DNA of 5,131 nucleotides, taken from NCBI GenBank assembly GCA_007136585.1, contig SLGR01000075.1, positions 1 through 5,131 of the forward strand, read 5' to 3'. Within the stretch, counting starts at the first letter, position 1; each line of letters begins with the position of its first letter. The notes beneath the pieces were generated by a model. That model made no database searches and had not been told where the DNA came from. It was given only the letters and a program-made list of their open reading frames with translations. Of this stretch, positions 1 to 5,131 are shown one piece after another. Both the position numbers and the translations under genes were made by a program. Source of the stretch: Candidatus Sumerlaeota bacterium (GTDB lineage: Bacteria; CG03; SLGR01).

Positions 1-2
1 AA

Positions 3-164
3 GATCTCGCTGAGCGGGACAGGATAGTCAGGGATTTTTCGCGGAAACACTGCCCGGCGGCTGTTACCCTGGCGGGGGGGTACAGCTGGGACGTGGAAGA
101 TACTGTCAGTATACACGCGGAGACGGTCCGTATCATTCTTAACCTTCCAGGTGAAAACTCTTAG
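3..164 (+). CDS. Histone deacetylase / acetoin utilisation family protein, C-terminal end (partial)
   Basis: Reading from base 3 gives 53 residues and a TAG stop at 162-164; the start lies upstream of the window. Visible are a helix rich in Arg and Asp, then CPAAVTLAGGYSWDVEDT and VSIHAETVRIIL. In the arginase-fold histone deacetylase family the C-terminal GGY carries the Tyr that polarises the substrate carbonyl, and bacterial members typically continue with a D-V-E-D-T / I-H / T-V pattern as here. The family removes acetyl groups from lysines or polyamines using a catalytic metal; the metal ligands would be upstream and cannot be checked. The stop overlaps the start of the next gene by 14 bases, so it is probably cotranscribed with the Rnf-like genes, although no functional link is evident. 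I am fairly sure of the family and unsure of the substrate. Confidence 0.72.
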   Translation, partial: DLAERDRIVRDFSRKHCPAAVTLAGGYSWDVEDTVSIHAETVRIILNLPGENS

Positions 165-1122
165 AGGAGGGTTCCGTATCGCGGGAGGCGGGTCTCCTGA
201 ATATGAAGACAGGGTCCCTTCCGGAGCCGGGTCTTCAACCGTTGTGAGGGCAGAGCTCTATCCTTACAGGCGCGCCGAACTCAGGGAAATGATAATAAAC
301 TCGGGAGCCTACACCCGTATACAGTTTGATAAGCTTGAATCCGAAGGGTGCGGGATGGTTGTGGCAAATATGCTCTGCGTATCTCCCTTCTCAGGGTTCA
401 GGAGCATAATAAGCCGGCGTTTCTCGGAAGGGATAATAACGGGGCTTAAGGTACTTATGGCCGCCTTGGCCGCAGATAAGGGGGAGGCGGCGGTTCCGGC
501 CGCCTCCGCGGAAGTTCTTAGGTCCTGCCGCGAGGCGGTCTCCTCATCTCCCAACATAACGCTGCGCCCCGTACAAGACAGGTACCCCCTGGGGTTTGAC
601 CGGGTTCTGTATGAAAAAATATACGGCGGAACCCCGAGGGGGTATTACCCCGGGAAATCCGGATGCCTTGTAGCCGGAGCGGAGAAACTGCTGGATATTT
701 ACCTGGCGGCGGAGACCGGAGGAGAACCCGGTTTCCCCGTTGTGGGCGTCTGCCCCGGAAAGACCCTGCTTCTATGGTGCAGGAAAGGGAAAAGTTTAAG
801 AGAACTTTCCGGGGAGCATAAAGAGATATCCGGAAAGTTTTATGTAAGCGGGGGGCTTTTATGGGGGGGTCCCGTTTTATCTTCCGGGGACCTGAGATTT
901 GACGGTTCGGGGCTTTTTTTCTCTCTTAAAGGCGGTAAGCTGAGAAAAAATTACTGCCTGGGATGCGGGAGGTGCGCGGCGGTATGCCCGGTAAACCTGG
1001 GGGGGGTAACCAGGTCACGGCTGGAACTTGATACTGTAGTTTCCGGGAAAGATGCAAAAAATCAGGAGTGCTTAAGGTGCGGGCTCTGCGTTTATCACTG
1101 TCCGGGGTACAGCTTTAAATGA
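151..1122 (+). CDS. rnfC: RnfC-like electron transport subunit, shortened and divergent, two 4Fe-4S clusters
   Basis: Protein of 323 residues; RnfC is usually about 430 or more. RnfC is the peripheral subunit of the Rnf ferredoxin:NAD+ oxidoreductase, carrying FMN/NADH sites and two 4Fe-4S clusters. Seen here: an N-terminal LRGGF (residues 4-8) resembling the family's KGG(I/V)H start; RYPLG (144-148) like the YPQG motif; SGGLLWGGP (233-241) then GSGLFF, like the GGPMMG...TSG segment; and two ferredoxin motifs, Cys269/272/275/279-Pro and Cys307/310/313/317-Pro. The usual GVGGAGFPT motif and the following CEPYLTAD are not recognisable; the corresponding stretch near residues 50-85 reads INSGAYTRIQFDKL and LCVSPFSGF. 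The GTG start at 151 is preferred because it keeps the RGGF motif. No canonical start follows the strong AGAGGAGG at 163-170, which lies just inside the gene. The stop overlaps the rnfD-like ATG by four bases. Confidence 0.8.
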   Translation: MKTLRGGFRIAGGGSPEYEDRVPSGAGSSTVVRAELYPYRRAELREMIINSGAYTRIQFDKLESEGCGMVVANMLCVSPFSGFRSIISRRFSEGIITGLKVLMAALAADKGEAAVPAASAEVLRSCREAVSSSPNITLRPVQDRYPLGFDRVLYEKIYGGTPRGYYPGKSGCLVAGAEKLLDIYLAAETGGEPGFPVVGVCPGKTLLLWCRKGKSLRELSGEHKEISGKFYVSGGLLWGGPVLSSGDLRFDGSGLFFSLKGGKLRKNYCLGCGRCAAVCPVNLGGVTRSRLELDTVVSGKDAKNQECLRCGLCVYHCPGYSFK

Positions 1123-1826
1123 ATAACCTCACGCCGCCTTTTACTCATTCGGGGTGTTCCCCCCGGTTATTATATGCGGCGCTTGCTCTTTCCGCCCTGC
1201 CGCCTGCGGCTTACGCAGCGGGGTTTCTTTCTTACCCGGGAACTAATCTGGCGGCTCTCTTGATCTTTCCCGCGGCCGGGTTTTTTTTCGGAACCGTGAT
1301 TTCCGGGAGAGATGCGGGGGTGATGCTGACAAAATACCTTTTAAACGGGGTTCTTTTTCTTATAATAACCCCGGCAGAATCCTTCGGTATAATCAGCCTT
1401 GCGGCTATTTTGACGGTTTCTGTTGGGGTTGAGGAGTTTATCCTTCGCTCCCCGTATTCAAACCCGTTTCCTCCTTTTATTACAGCGTTTCTTTTATTCG
1501 GGGCGCCTGAGACCGCGTCCCTTCCGGCTGCGGCAGTCTGGGTCGCGCTCTCCGGAGTTATAGCGGCCTTTATCCTCCGCACCACGGGGGCGCTTACCGC
1601 GGTTTCGGCCGCGGCGGGAGCCGGTTTGTATATGTTCTTCTCCGGGGCGGGGTTCCCGGAAGCAGCCGCGGTTTCGGTGATAGCGGCGGGTTACCCGGGA
1701 CTCCTTCCTGCAGAGAGGTTAAAGAGGGTTCTTGCGGCGGCTGCGCTGGGGGCGGCGGCCGCAGGAATAGGGTACCGGGGGATGGCGCTGGCCTTTATAG
1801 CCGCGGGGGTTATGGAATGGTTCTGA
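1119..1826 (+). CDS. rnfD: RnfD-like integral membrane subunit lacking the FMN-bearing loop
   Basis: Very hydrophobic protein of 235 residues; RnfD is normally around 320-350. The start PFTHSGCSPRLLYA (7-20) matches the family's SPH-x-H-S-G...R opening, SPYSNPFPPF (111-120) matches the GGLGxNPFNPA region, and the final third (ERLKRVLAAAALG, then GYRGMALAFIAAGV) matches the conserved RGRLIFGAGIG...GYPEGVAFA end. Several membrane helices can be read, roughly residues 17-35, 43-61, 70-84, 88-105, 117-128, 136-153, 158-175 and 203-232. In RnfD/NqrB an extracytoplasmic segment after NPFNPA carries the SGAT motif whose Thr binds FMN covalently. Here the chain runs almost directly from NPF to GAPETASLPAAA, which resembles the later GSLGETSALA motif, so that loop appears deleted. 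Start ATG overlaps the rnfC-like stop (ATGA), and there is no clear Shine-Dalgarno, so reinitiation is likely. Confidence 0.75.
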   Translation: MNNLTPPFTHSGCSPRLLYAALALSALPPAAYAAGFLSYPGTNLAALLIFPAAGFFFGTVISGRDAGVMLTKYLLNGVLFLIITPAESFGIISLAAILTVSVGVEEFILRSPYSNPFPPFITAFLLFGAPETASLPAAAVWVALSGVIAAFILRTTGALTAVSAAAGAGLYMFFSGAGFPEAAAVSVIAAGYPGLLPAERLKRVLAAAALGAAAAGIGYRGMALAFIAAGVMEWF

Positions 1827-2224
1827 GAAAAGTTTTCCTGGGTTTAATAACCGCTCTGTTTTTCGGGGTCCTTATTAAGGTTTACGACCATACCGGGTTG
1901 GATACCACCGAACCCTGCGAATCTCTCCCGGAGGCAAAGGAGGGGGTCTACAGGGGAACGGCAAGGGGGTTTGTTTCCGATATAGAGGTTGAGGTAAAGT
2001 TTGAAAGAAGTAAGCCGGGGGAAGAGGTAAGGATGACCCGTATAAGCGTGGTCTCCTCCCGGGAGGTGAAACGGTACTGGGATAAGGTGCTGGAAGAGCT
2101 GAAACCCCTGGTTCTTGAGACCCAGAGCACCTCAGTGGACGCTGTTACGGGTGCAACGGGTTCAAGCAGGGGTTTTCTGGAAGCGGTAGAGGATGCAAAG
2201 AGAAGAGCTTATAAGAGCGATTAG
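1817..2224 (+). CDS. rnfG: RnfG-like FMN-binding domain protein with covalent-FMN motif
   Basis: Protein of 135 residues, against about 180-210 for usual RnfG. It has one N-terminal membrane helix (about 6-22) followed by a single FMN_bind domain (about 43-130). The domain shows EGVYRGTARGF, the pattern TRISVVSSREVKRYW, and VDAVTGATGSSRGFLEAV. The segment Asp108-Ala-Val-Thr111-Gly-Ala-Thr114 fits the Dxx(S/T)GAT target motif of the flavin transferase ApbE, so Thr114 is the predicted phosphoester-linked FMN attachment residue. In Rnf and Nqr complexes this subunit relays electrons on the extracytoplasmic side, which the N-terminal anchor supports. No apbE gene lies in the window. The ATG overlaps the end of the rnfD-like gene by 10 bases. 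This is the best preserved subunit of the cluster; the function of the whole remains inference. Confidence 0.85.
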   Translation: MVLRKVFLGLITALFFGVLIKVYDHTGLDTTEPCESLPEAKEGVYRGTARGFVSDIEVEVKFERSKPGEEVRMTRISVVSSREVKRYWDKVLEELKPLVLETQSTSVDAVTGATGSSRGFLEAVEDAKRRAYKSD

Positions 2225-2690
2225 AACCGCCCCGCCTGCCGCCCTGGTCCCGGCCCTGGTCTTTTCGCGCAGCATACCCGCATCCCTGTTCGCCGCAGGT
2301 TATTTTGCGGTTATAATATTTTTTCTGTACCTGGCGCTTCTTTTTTCCGGGAAACGGCTAAGCCGCGGAGAAACCATATTTCTCTGCGCCTCGGTTTCGG
2401 GTTTTATCTCAACCCTGTGTTTTATTCTTTCAGCAGGGGGCATCACTGAGACCGAGTCGGCTGTTTTAGGTGTCTCTGCCTTATATTTCGCCTCCGTTAT
2501 GACGGCTGGATTCAGGGTAACAGGTCCTGCGGAGAAGTTTTTTTCAGGAACCGCCGCGGTCTCCCTTATAATAATGGCGGTCTCTCTTCCTGTCACTGTA
2601 ATTCCGTATCCCTCCGCGGCATCCTCCTTTTTTTCCGCCGCCCTTATTTTTGCCGCGGTATCAGCTTTATCGGGTAAGGGAGGGTCTTAG
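2193..2690 (+). CDS. rnfE: RnfE-like integral membrane subunit without the cluster cysteines
   Basis: Protein of 165 residues with about five to six membrane helices (roughly 17-35, 36-52, 60-80, 86-105, 118-135 and 143-159). Assignment rests on position (fourth in a C-D-G-E-A series) and weak similarity in layout. EELIRAIRTAPPAALVPALVF parallels the NPxLVxxLGLCP opening of RnfE, and the basic SGKRLSRGET loop is followed by CASVSGFISTLCFIL, parallel to the IASxVxxVxxLL helix. In RnfE one Cys in LGLCP and one in the later TNC motif help hold a 2Fe-2S cluster between RnfA and RnfE. Here the first aligns with the VFSRS stretch and the second with FASVM, so both appear missing. The only cysteines, Cys65 and Cys76, lie elsewhere. 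It overlaps the rnfG-like gene by 32 bases, the longest overlap in the operon. It could also be an unrelated membrane protein that took the RnfE position. Confidence 0.52.
   Translation: MQREELIRAIRTAPPAALVPALVFSRSIPASLFAAGYFAVIIFFLYLALLFSGKRLSRGETIFLCASVSGFISTLCFILSAGGITETESAVLGVSALYFASVMTAGFRVTGPAEKFFSGTAAVSLIIMAVSLPVTVIPYPSAASSFFSAALIFAAVSALSGKGGS
2676..2684 (+). promoter_or_regulatory. Strong Shine-Dalgarno of the rnfA-like gene
   Basis: AAGGGAGGG lies within the last codons of the rnfE-like gene, seven bases before the ATG at 2692. It is the clearest ribosome binding site inside the operon and decides the start of the rnfA-like gene in favour of ATG 2692 over TTG 2650. Confidence 0.75.
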
Positions 2691-2691
2691 A

Positions 2692-3180
2692 ATGAGTTCT
2701 CCGGCCGCCGCGCTATATTATTTTCTTGGTCTCCGGATCCTGTGGAATATAGCGGAGAATACTCCGGGGAGGTTCCGCCGTCTAAGTTCCGTCTTCTGCG
2801 TTTCCGGGGCGGCGTTTATGACCGGGGTATCTCATATCTTATTAACCGGTCTCTACGGACCGGCTCTTAATATTATTTCGGTTATTCTTCTGGGGGTTTT
2901 CTGGGGCCGGGTGTTCTCCGTCTTTGCCGGAGGGGATTTTTTCCCGGAGTTCAGCACCCTCGGAGCCGGAGGGGCGCTGCTTGCCTCTGAGTACGGGGTG
3001 ACTCCGGGAGCTTCCTTTCTTTTTTTCGGGTATCTCTCGGGAGGGTACTTTGTTGCTGCCGCGCTCTTTCTCCCGGTATACGCCTCCCTGAACAGGAAAG
3101 CGCACCCGTATTTTAGGGGTATACCGGTTATGCTTATAATACTGGGTCTTCTTACCCTGCTTCTAAAGGGATGGGTCTGA
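2692..3180 (+). CDS. rnfA: RnfA-like integral membrane subunit without the cluster cysteines
   Basis: Protein of 162 residues with about five to six membrane helices; RnfA is about 190. The N-terminal YFLGLRILWNIAE (10-22) aligns with the family's KFLGLCPFMGVSKK, with Arg15 in place of the Cys. The C-terminal FRGIPVMLIILGLLTLLLKGW (141-161) closely follows the RnfA ending FRGxxIALITAGLMxLAFMGF. The second family cysteine, in TNCAVLG, has no counterpart, and the only Cys is Cys36. In Rnf/Nqr the RnfA-RnfE pair forms a pseudo-symmetric channel around a 2Fe-2S cluster, so this protein is not expected to bind that cluster. Start: the ATG at 2692 has AAGGGAGGG (2676-2684) seven bases upstream and lies one base after the preceding stop. 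An in-frame TTG at 2650 would add 14 poorly conserved residues inside the rnfE-like gene and is not favoured. Confidence 0.68.
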   Translation: MSSPAAALYYFLGLRILWNIAENTPGRFRRLSSVFCVSGAAFMTGVSHILLTGLYGPALNIISVILLGVFWGRVFSVFAGGDFFPEFSTLGAGGALLASEYGVTPGASFLFFGYLSGGYFVAAALFLPVYASLNRKAHPYFRGIPVMLIILGLLTLLLKGWV

Positions 3181-4268
3181 GTTTATCTGCCGGGAAAAAT
3201 CCCCTGGAGGAGAAAAACCTTATACCTGCTTTGGCAATTCTTACAGTCGCCGCAGCGGCGGTTCAGGCAGCGGAGGGGGCTGCGCCTCTTCCGGATATAT
3301 GGGGGGAGCCGGGGCTTGTAAACCTTGTAACGCTTATCTCTCTTATACTTTTTGGTTCCGGGAGCGCCCTTGGAGTAACTCTGGGAAGGGTTCTTCTCGT
3401 ATCATTTTTTGAGGGGACGTTTCTTTCCCCGGTCTTTTATACTCTCCTAGTCTCCGGGGTTGCTTCGGCCGCGGTTATGATTCTTCTTTACAGGCCCCTT
3501 GGGGTTCTTAGCCCGGTCTGGGTAGGCGTCGCCGGAGGCTTTTCTTATAATCTAACCCGTCTCTTATCGGTCTATCTCCAGACGGCAGTTCCCCCCAGTA
3601 TTCTAAAGCAGTTTCTCCTTCTGGCAGCTGCCGGCGCGGCGGTAGGCGCCGTAAACGGGTATCTGTCCGCCCGGGGTGCTATTGTTCTTACCCGCTTTTC
3701 TCCCAGAAGAATCTACCTGGGGTCCTCTTCTCCCAGGCGTATTGAGATTATGAGAAAACGGGGGGTTCCCGTCATAGTTATCTCACCCGGGATAAATGAA
3801 GGTCCGCCCCTTAAAGGCGAAAACCCCGCTGATTACGCTTCCAGGCAGGCAGAGGAGAAGCTTCGCGCGATTGCCGGGTATCTCAGGCCTCCCGGAATAT
3901 TGATAACAGCTGATACCGTAGTGGAATGCGGCGGCAGGATACTCGGAAAACCTTCCGGGGAAGACGAAGCGGCCAGGATGCTCAGGTATCTTTCGGGGAA
4001 AACTCAGCGTGTTTTTACGGCGGTGGAAGCGCTGAATCTCAGAACAGGAGAAAAATCGGGAAGGGTTGAGGTCTCGGAACTGAAAATGAAAGATATGACC
4101 CCTGAAGAAGTGAGTAACCTTAAAGGGCGCAACCTGGACAAGGCCGGCGCCTACGGGATACAGAGCATGCGTGACCGCTACGTTGAATGGGTTAAGGGGA
4201 GTTACCTTAATATAGTGGGGTTTCCCGTTGCGGCTGTCCGTGACCTGATAAGGGAAGTGGGCGGGTAG
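3171..4268 (+). CDS. Fusion of Gx-transporter/HepI-like membrane domain with Maf nucleotide pyrophosphatase
   Basis: Protein of 365 residues with two domains in one unbroken frame. Residues about 17-168 are hydrophobic and resemble the Gx transporter / heptaprenyl diphosphate synthase component I family: GEPGLVNLVTLISLILFG, RVLLVSFFEGTFLSPVF and VGVAGGFSYNL are typical; about five helices; substrate unknown. Residues about 180-365 form a full-length Maf domain: LGSSSPRR (183-190), INEG (208-211), ADTVV (247-251), GKP (259-261), LSGKTQRVFTAV, DKAGAYGIQ (323-331) and GSYLNIVGFP (343-352). Maf proteins are house-cleaning NTP pyrophosphatases; the DKAGAYGIQ form is that of the YhdE-type dTTP/UTP enzymes, so activity is likely retained. 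The Maf part should face the cytosol. The ATG overlaps the rnfA-like gene by 10 bases; AAAGGG lies immediately before it, with an in-frame CTG at 3177 as an alternative start. It sits where rnfB would be expected. Confidence 0.85.
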   Translation: MGLSLSAGKNPLEEKNLIPALAILTVAAAAVQAAEGAAPLPDIWGEPGLVNLVTLISLILFGSGSALGVTLGRVLLVSFFEGTFLSPVFYTLLVSGVASAAVMILLYRPLGVLSPVWVGVAGGFSYNLTRLLSVYLQTAVPPSILKQFLLLAAAGAAVGAVNGYLSARGAIVLTRFSPRRIYLGSSSPRRIEIMRKRGVPVIVISPGINEGPPLKGENPADYASRQAEEKLRAIAGYLRPPGILITADTVVECGGRILGKPSGEDEAARMLRYLSGKTQRVFTAVEALNLRTGEKSGRVEVSELKMKDMTPEEVSNLKGRNLDKAGAYGIQSMRDRYVEWVKGSYLNIVGFPVAAVRDLIREVGG

Positions 4269-4955
4269 CTACTGAAGCCCGGCAACTTCCGGGTTTACCT
4301 CCACCTGGTAGCGGCGGTGAAGCTCCCTGGCCCAGTGCCCGTAGAGCGCGGTCCTTTTCTCCTGCAGAAGCTGGTTTTCAAGTTCCCTTCTCTTATCTTC
4401 AAATCCGGCAAGAGATCCGTGTTTAGATCTGTAGCGCAGTTTAAGCTCCGGTTCGGTGACCCTGACCGACGATAAGATATGTCTTTCAAGCTTGCGTATT
4501 GCAAGGTCGCGTTTTATAAGATCTTCAAACTCCTCGGGGGTCATGTTCATCGAGAACCTGAGAGCCTGCCGGTAGAGCTGGAAGTTGAAGACGTTATCCT
4601 CCTGGAACTGGGGAAGACCCCTTATGGTCTCTATGACTTCCTGGTCCGGAACGGTTATACCGATCCTGGATGCTTCCTGGTACCGGAGTTCCTGGTTTAT
4701 CATAGAACTCAGGACTTCGTGTCTTGCCTCGATAAGCTGCGCGTCGGTAAGGTCTTCTTCCAGTTCCTGTCTCATCCGGTTTATATGCTGGGTAATCCTC
4801 TGCTGGTAGGTGCGGTATTCTATACGGGTTCGACCAGCTCTCGCCACGGTATTATGATCTCCGGCCCCTGTTCCGAACCAGAAGAAAAGCCCTCCTATGA
4901 AAAGGACGGTTATTACCCACATGACCTTTTTCATGTTTTTTCTGAGTTTATCCAT
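4269..4955 (-). CDS. Membrane-anchored SurA/PpiD-like periplasmic chaperone without PPIase domain
   Basis: From the ATG at 4955 the protein has 228 residues: a basic start (MDKLRKNMKK), one membrane helix (about 10-28), then a SurA_N-type helical domain. Typical features are TVARAGRTRIEYRTYQQRI (36-54), EVLSSMINQELRYQEASRIGI (80-100), VPDQEVIETIRGLPQFQ, MTPEEFEDLIKRDLAIRKLE and VTEPELKLRY (166-175). In SurA and PpiD a parvulin isomerase domain follows. Here the chain goes directly to FEDKRRELENQLLQEKR and a WARELHRRYQVEVNPE end (208-223), the usual final helix and strand, so the isomerase domain is absent. It probably acts as an outer-membrane/periplasmic protein folding chaperone, anchored as PpiD is. 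Start is uncertain: ATGs at 4958, 4955 and 4934 all lack a good Shine-Dalgarno; TTG 4997 would put charged and Cys residues ahead of the anchor. It ends directly against the convergent operon, zero bases apart. Confidence 0.78.
   Translation of the reverse strand: MDKLRKNMKKVMWVITVLFIGGLFFWFGTGAGDHNTVARAGRTRIEYRTYQQRITQHINRMRQELEEDLTDAQLIEARHEVLSSMINQELRYQEASRIGITVPDQEVIETIRGLPQFQEDNVFNFQLYRQALRFSMNMTPEEFEDLIKRDLAIRKLERHILSSVRVTEPELKLRYRSKHGSLAGFEDKRRELENQLLQEKRTALYGHWARELHRRYQVEVNPEVAGLQ
4275..4296 (+). terminator. Possible bidirectional terminator hairpin at convergent gene ends
   Basis: AAGCCCGG (4275-4282) pairs with CCGGGTTT (4289-4296), one G-T wobble, around a six-base CAACTT loop. 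It starts six bases after the Maf-fusion stop and lies inside the last codons of the minus-strand chaperone gene. The T run after it on the plus strand is only TTT then ACC, so it is a weak intrinsic terminator at best. It is the only candidate near the junction. Confidence 0.33.
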
Positions 4956-4970
4956 CATAACAGGTACAAT

Positions 4971-4997
4971 ACTATACAATAACTGCCTGCATATCAA
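4971..4997 (-). promoter_or_regulatory. Candidate promoter of the SurA-like gene
   Basis: On the minus strand TTGATA (4997-4992) and TATAGT (4976-4971) resemble -35 and -10 boxes, but the 15-base spacer is shorter than the usual 17. Transcription would begin near 4964, leaving a leader of only about 6-9 bases before ATG 4958/4955. This would fit the missing Shine-Dalgarno (near-leaderless start), or else the start is ATG 4934. Confidence 0.3.
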
Positions 4998-5020
4998 GGG
5001 CGGAGGTTGTCTCGGTCGTA

Positions 5021-5082
5021 TTGCCTCACAAGAAAATCTAAACGAAACATAATCGTTGCCTCATCAGAAAATCTAAACGAAA
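5021..5082 (+). repeat. Two 27-base direct repeats, 35-base period
   Basis: Copy one is 5021-5047 and copy two is 5056-5082. Both open with TTGCCTCA and close with AGAAAATCTAAACGAAA; they differ only at positions 9 and 10 (CA versus TC), giving 25 of 27 identical. The intervening eight bases are CATAATCG. Base composition is visibly more AT-rich than the flanking genes. Tandem repeated end sequences containing a GAAAA-x-x-x-x-AAC core just before a transposase gene recall the multiple transposase-binding repeats of IS21-family ends. Part of a regulatory operator is the alternative. Confidence 0.85.
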
Positions 5083-5094
5083 TGATTTAGAATA

Positions 5095-5113
5095 GCCACC
5101 GAAGGGAGGTGGC
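5095..5113 (+). promoter_or_regulatory. Hairpin overlapping a strong ribosome binding site
   Basis: GCCACC (5095-5100) pairs perfectly with GGTGGC (5108-5113) around a GAAGGGA loop. The GGAGGT Shine-Dalgarno (5105-5110) lies half in the loop and half in the 3' stem, eight bases before ATG 5119. If it folds in the mRNA it would lower translation of the following gene, a way insertion sequences limit transposase made from outside transcripts. A TAGAAT at 5088-5093 resembles a -10 box, but I see no matching -35 box. Confidence 0.5.
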
Positions 5114-5118
5114 GAAAG

Positions 5119-5131
5119 ATGAGGTTAGAAT
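5119..5131 (+). CDS. Start of a plus-strand gene, probably a transposase (partial)
   Basis: ATG at 5119 follows GGAGGT with ideal eight-base spacing and reads Met-Arg-Leu-Glu before the window ends. The start call rests on the ribosome binding site. The transposase call rests only on the repeats and hairpin upstream and cannot be tested from four residues. Confidence 0.45.

Follow-up and report, generated by a model that had tools for sequence, protein, structure and literature searches.

A shortened Rnf paralogue conserved across an order of Candidatus Sumerlaeota has probably lost the canonical transmembrane electron path

Introduction

Rnf and Nqr pumps rely on one buried [2Fe-2S] cluster and on the flavins of RnfD. 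In the Rnf complex of A. woodii, the ligands of the membrane [2Fe-2S] cluster are C25 and C113 in RnfA and C25 and C108 in RnfE, RnfD carries flavin mononucleotide (FMN) on T156 and binds riboflavin at N123 and D249, and the B8 cluster of RnfB lies within residues 30–100; mutants without AE1, B8, FMN-G or the riboflavin contacts have zero activity (PMC11889175). Here we analyse a cluster of five short Rnf-like genes on a 5,131-nucleotide stretch of DNA from a Candidatus Sumerlaeota bacterium (assembly GCA_007136585.1, contig SLGR01000075.1, positions 1 to 5,131 of the forward strand), referred to as the window. We put the probability at about 0.75 that this cluster encodes an order-wide Rnf paralogue, with subunits derived from RnfC, D, G and A, probably also E, and in relatives B, in which the transmembrane electron path has been erased; this value covers the identity of the complex and the loss of the canonical path, not its role.

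The short set resembles the Rnf complex (A. woodii structure 9eri; PF02508, PF03116, TIGR01945) in its C-D-G-E-A order, followed by B in relatives, in subunit homology, in the [4Fe-4S] clusters of C and the flavinylation motif of G, and in a linkage to EetB as found in many Clostridia (PMC9973259). It differs in lacking the AE1 cysteines, the RnfD FMN threonine and riboflavin contacts, B8, and the N-terminal region and FMN loop of RnfC, in having an RnfB that is truncated or absent, and in D, E and A proteins that fall below the Pfam and NCBIfam models. Na+-NQR has a related fold, with the structural model of the short A matching NqrE at a Z-score of ~11, and provides a precedent in NqrA, an RnfC homologue without redox cofactors (PMC12174285). 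However, the short C keeps Fe-S motifs that NqrA lacks, the membrane cofactor ligands are absent from the short set, and Pfam searches found no NqrF-type domain in the window proteins. The NQR/RNF-like flavinylated systems (Meheust 2021, PMC8238504) are likewise partial Rnf-type sets and are thought to carry electrons in one direction to an FMN domain outside the cytosol, but their defining traits are the union of an RnfD/NqrB domain with an NqrF NAD-binding domain (PF03116-PF00175) and a flavinylated membrane domain. The short set has neither, and PF00175 gave no Pfam match in the seven window proteins. With the EetA/EetB system of flavin-based extracellular electron transfer in Listeria (PF07009, PF07456) the locus shares an adjacent EetB homologue and an FMN_bind protein, as well as NusG_II in most relatives and ApbE in most genomes, whereas its cytosolic and membrane parts are Rnf-derived, its EetB is fused to Maf, and neither Ndh2 nor PplA is encoded in the short cluster. 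The open-access literature searched yielded no account of a set like this.

Homology of the short subunits to Rnf

An initial annotation, made from the sequence of the window alone, described five genes in the order C-D-G-E-A. The coordinates and lengths it gave were confirmed (Table 1): five plus-strand open reading frames (ORFs), all open, overlap or abut one another in this order. Each subunit was also said to be shorter than usual, which was borne out by comparison with the canonical proteins of the same order (C 418–430 residues, D 332–342, G 173, E 197–199, A 195–196). Short-cluster sequences were taken from seven relatives (loci L034–L040), canonical Rnf proteins were drawn from the same and from distant genomes, and profiles were compared with hhalign.

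The short C matched Pfam Complex1_51K (E-value 2e-10) together with the ferredoxin dicluster Fer4_10, and the short G matched FMN_bind (E-value 6e-9); by hhalign they aligned with canonical RnfC (4e-31) and RnfG (2e-13), respectively. Neither Pfam nor NCBIfam gave a convincing match for D, E or A of the window, though PF03116 matched the short D of one relative (G003) with an E-value of 8e-5, and a second weak colinear piece of that match skipped the middle of the profile. By hhalign, the short D aligned over its full length with canonical RnfD (96.8%, E-value 2e-10), and the short A with canonical RnfA (90%, E-value 2e-6, also full length). The short B proteins of the relatives aligned with canonical RnfB at 3e-39. 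An AlphaFold model of the short A (predicted local distance difference test, pLDDT, 74) matched RnfA/NqrE chains in its top seven PDB hits and superposed on RnfA (9eri_A) over 148 residues at 2.5 Å with a Z-score of 12.8 (VIA-align). These results establish the short C, D, G and A as homologues of the corresponding Rnf subunits.

The assignment of the short E to RnfE is suggestive, being likely from its profile and its position. A first profile that pooled RnfE with RnfA was blurred, and separate profiles gave A-to-A and E-to-E specificity, with canonical RnfE as the best partner of the short E in an end-to-end colinear alignment. Its score of 20.9, with an E-value of 0.026, compares with a maximum of 13.2 among 47 reversed or rotated controls. 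The AlphaFold model of the short E was poor (pLDDT 50), and the lack of any Rnf chain in its fold list is uninformative either way. The initial claim that every subunit carries recognizable family signatures did not hold for D, E and A, which fall below the family models and miss the signature residues.

Cofactor sites lost and kept

The residue roles known from A. woodii were mapped onto alignments of the short and canonical proteins. Cysteines at the [2Fe-2S] positions were found in no short A, compared to 26/26 canonical A proteins, and in the short A of the window LGICPFLG is replaced by LGLRILWN; likewise, no short E has them, compared to 28/29 and 29/29 canonical proteins at the two positions, the alignment being weaker here. 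The ATPL loop bearing the FMN threonine is absent from all eight short D proteins, in which the asparagine column of the riboflavin contacts holds proline in seven members and threonine in one, and the aspartate column tyrosine in all. The GxGGAxFP FMN/NADH loop occurs in 0/8 short C proteins versus 25/26 canonical ones, the N-terminal region of RnfC is also absent, and the short B of the relatives skips the B8 domain.

Other sites are strictly kept. Both CxxCxxCxxxC motifs of C, eight ferredoxin-type cysteines in total, are intact in all members, as is the flavinylation motif D..T.AT.S of G. The invariant residues of the short D are limited to P, G, Y and the start Met, and the short E and A retain almost no invariant polar residues across families.

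With these ligands and domains missing, the canonical ferredoxin:NAD+ pump path should not run in the short complex, and we have high confidence, judging from the alignments, that it would be unable to oxidize ferredoxin with NAD+ or to pump ions by the canonical route. The loss of residues and domains essential in A. woodii, together with the RnfC FMN motif, supports the earlier proposal that the cluster does something other than ferredoxin:NAD+ oxidation. It also warns against taking RnfC-like or RnfG-like matches, or gene order, as proof of ferredoxin:NAD+ activity. A natural complex that keeps the subunits across an order and erases exactly the sites on which Rnf/Nqr pumps rely would offer a natural test of which parts of the Rnf fold work cofactor-free: scaffold, ion path or flavin delivery.

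Distribution, selection and coexistence with canonical Rnf

The same shortened set was sought in related genomes and was present at the same place in all eight genomes examined from the order, including drafts of 66–88% completeness. When a short-C profile was searched against 386 genomes, the eight members of the order scored at E-values of 1e-119 or lower, and the next match, at 7e-34, marked the start of canonical RnfC; the short C proteins constitute a separate clade. Canonical Rnf genes occur in the window's own genome (a partial rnfG followed by rnfE, rnfA and rnfB on G000:C182, and rnfC on C39), and canonical sets are also found in its relatives. Together these results bear out the earlier suggestion of a distinct Rnf paralogue existing beside a standard Rnf.

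The ratio of nonsynonymous to synonymous substitution rates (dN/dS) was 0.18–0.41 for every subunit with estimable dS in two congeneric pairs of relatives; with dS at 0.56–1.7, in some cases near saturation, these values are rough. They argue against decay, as the open and coupled frames had been taken to do, and relaxed selection (dN/dS near 1) was not found. For the same genome pairs across families, identity was 20–34% for the short E and A versus 72–85% for canonical E and A, so that constraint on the short E and A is loosened, not lost, a contrast in rate that fits the loss of a membrane redox job.

Possible role and alternative explanations

Our proposal for the role, a tentative one held at low confidence, is that D, E and A form a cofactor-free membrane platform for a flavoprotein in the periplasm that EetB supplies. 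D, E and A would hold the cytosolic Fe-S subunits, C and B, together with a covalently flavinylated periplasmic G; EetB would export flavin adenine dinucleotide (FAD), ApbE would attach FMN to G, and the FMN-bearing G would act as a periplasmic one-electron carrier. Electrons might reach G via the neighbouring canonical Rnf or a diffusible mediator, not through membrane cofactors of the complex itself. More broadly, it is conceivable, at somewhat worse than even odds, that the set represents a new class: either an Rnf-derived complex whose cytosolic Fe-S module and periplasmic FMN are linked with no fixed intramembrane cofactor, or one that dropped transmembrane electron transfer and in which the Rnf fold serves transport or cofactor delivery.

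Several observations weigh against this account of an order-wide paralogue and its proposed role. The RnfE homology is weak (E-value 0.026) and the model of E is poor (pLDDT 50). The link to EetB is confounded with ancestry, since the comparison is between a single order and the remainder of the phylum. Two genomes, G005 and G007, have no ApbE or UbiA match and yet keep the short G motif, so that neither flavinylation nor a quinone mediator can be demonstrated there. Finally, a slowly failing complex would also fit the rapid evolution of the cluster and the reduction or loss of B and NusG_II in some lineages. If a duplicated Rnf operon were in slow reductive decay, with residual function alone keeping it, this would account for the fast divergence and for a B that is 187–200, 121 or 93 residues long in relatives and absent from the window. 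We nevertheless regard decay as very improbable given the dN/dS values, the C, D, G, E and A frames that are open in all members where contigs cover them, and the gene order and motifs that are fixed across four families.

An accessory of canonical Rnf is the strongest of the alternatives, although still unlikely. The short proteins would then be pseudo-subunits in mixed or regulatory complexes, or would help the assembly or flavinylation of canonical Rnf, a role that needs no membrane cofactors and agrees with the coexistence of canonical Rnf in these genomes, with the linked gene for a FAD-export subunit, and with NusG_II lying beside ApbE in G004 and G006. However, other genomes of the phylum have canonical Rnf without the short cluster, which is therefore not generally required; the short and canonical loci are unlinked; and the strict retention of the eight cysteines of C and of the G motif points to a redox function of the short set itself. 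The RnfA/E/D fold, freed of cofactors, could also work as a non-redox channel or transporter for Na+ or solutes, with gating by the cytosolic Fe-S subunits, and would then be comparable to the membrane subunits in Mtr, the Na+-translocating methyltransferase; we consider this less probable again. The model of the short A does resemble Mtr membrane subunits (8q3v_C, Z-score 9.2; 9qtq_M, 8.5), MtrE resembles NqrE/RnfA (PMC12774963), and RnfD/NqrB have been described as relatives of ammonium and urea transporters (PMC12174285), but for a helical bundle a Z-score below 13 carries little weight, the near-absence of invariant polar residues in the short E and A and the few invariants of D speak against such a unit, and the kept flavin motif of G is left unexplained.

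Gene neighbourhood

The cluster had been described as complete and as ending at position 3180. Neither description held: Rnf needs RnfB, which is absent from the window, and the set runs on into a gene for an EetB-Maf fusion whose start overlaps the stop of the short A and which travels along with the cluster. The next gene encodes a SurA_N protein on the opposite strand. In relatives, the block reads OTCase, outer-membrane barrel, HDAC-like, C, D, G, E, A, short B, NusG_II, EetB-Maf, SurA_N and HisH-HisF, with the blocks of G001 and G002 each pieced together from two contigs. A short rnfB follows A in the seven other genomes of the order and is missing in that of the window; its product has 187–200 residues in G001, G003, G005 and G007, 121 in G002 and 93 in G004 and G006, with its Fe-S clusters mostly kept. 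In relatives, short rnfB and/or NusG_II sit at the junction of A and EetB-Maf; NusG_II lies within the cluster in G002, G003, G005 and G007, and had no match in the window's genome or G001.

Table 1. Features of the short Rnf-like cluster in the window
Feature	Positions	Strand	Evidence
Short RnfC-like, 323 residues, GTG start	151..1122	+	Pfam Complex1_51K and Fer4_10; hhalign to canonical RnfC; motif audit
First [4Fe-4S] motif of C, CLGCGRCAAVC, residues 269-279	955..987	+	Invariant in 8/8 short C proteins
Second [4Fe-4S] motif of C, CLRCGLCVYHC, residues 307-317	1069..1101	+	Invariant in 8/8 short C proteins
Short RnfD-like membrane protein, 235 residues	1119..1826	+	hhalign to canonical RnfD; PF03116 on the G003 orthologue
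Short RnfG-like, 135 residues, N-terminal anchor and FMN_bind domain	1817..2224	+	Pfam FMN_bind; hhalign to RnfG
Flavinylation motif of G, DAVTGATGS, residues 108-116, predicted FMN-threonine 114	2138..2164	+	D..T.AT.S in 8/8 short G proteins
Short RnfE-like membrane protein, 165 residues, assignment suggestive	2193..2690	+	Profile match; position between G and A; alignment
Short RnfA-like membrane protein, 162 residues (counted from ATG at 2692; ORF listed from TTG at 2650)	2692..3180	+	hhalign to canonical RnfA; model versus 9eri_A
EetB-like FAD-export ECF-S domain (PF07456, ~3240-3671) fused to Maf nucleotide pyrophosphatase	3171..4268	+	Pfam PF07456 and Maf

In Listeria, EetB is the FAD-export ECF-S subunit for flavinylation, and it is often found near Rnf genes in Clostridia (PMC9973259). 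The EetB-Maf protein of the window matched PF07456 at an E-value of 2e-15 and Maf at 3e-43. PF07456 was present in 8/8 genomes of the order and 0/8 other genomes of the phylum, and its position adjoining an FMN_bind gene cluster, with ApbE elsewhere in the genome, is consistent with a putative export subunit. ApbE was found in six of the eight genomes, that of the window among them, and so were UbiA-type genes; G005 and G007, of the same genus and 94% and 66% complete, gave no match for either. A quinone mediator was accordingly dropped as a general solution. The idea that D, E and A replace a missing ECF-T partner of EetB was likewise rejected, as CbiQ/EcfT-type proteins occur in 8/8 genomes.

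Further observations

The fusion of PF07456 and Maf in a single polypeptide is unusual and recurs in relatives (L036 4964-6028, L039 4546-5670). In the relatives, short rnfC begins where an HDAC/acetoin-utilisation-like gene ends (window 1-150; L036 10093-10995; L040 9784-10683), the two being apparently translationally coupled. The canonical RnfD of G005 and G007 also keeps its flavinylation motif despite the lack of an ApbE match, reflecting either draft gaps or real absence.

The canonical cluster of the order reads C-G-E-A-B without rnfD (L043 6099-10017, L044 6707-10456, L087 6268-7296, L092 4762-5760). Canonical rnfD lies elsewhere in genomes of the order, near a NifS-like and a serine acetyltransferase-like gene, and had no match in the window's genome (88% complete). 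In three genomes, a formyltetrahydrofolate deformylase-like gene (ACT and formyltransferase) adjoins canonical rnfC (L042 1415-2293, L043 9992-10867, L044 10459-11343). A stand-alone RnfD-like protein of 253 residues without TGAT or ATPL (PF03116, E-value 3e-13) is encoded in G012 (L085 7627-8388), beside heavy-metal efflux-type genes.

The window makes up the whole of contig G000:C228 in a draft genome of 1.9 Mb. A contig this short could hold assembly debris, but that reading of the cluster was ruled out, since the same cluster lies within a 138 kb contig of G003. Close to the contig end, at ~5018-5090, TTGCCTCA..AGAAAATCTAAACGAAA occurs in two nearly identical copies; the assembly may have broken here at the edge of a repeat or mobile element.

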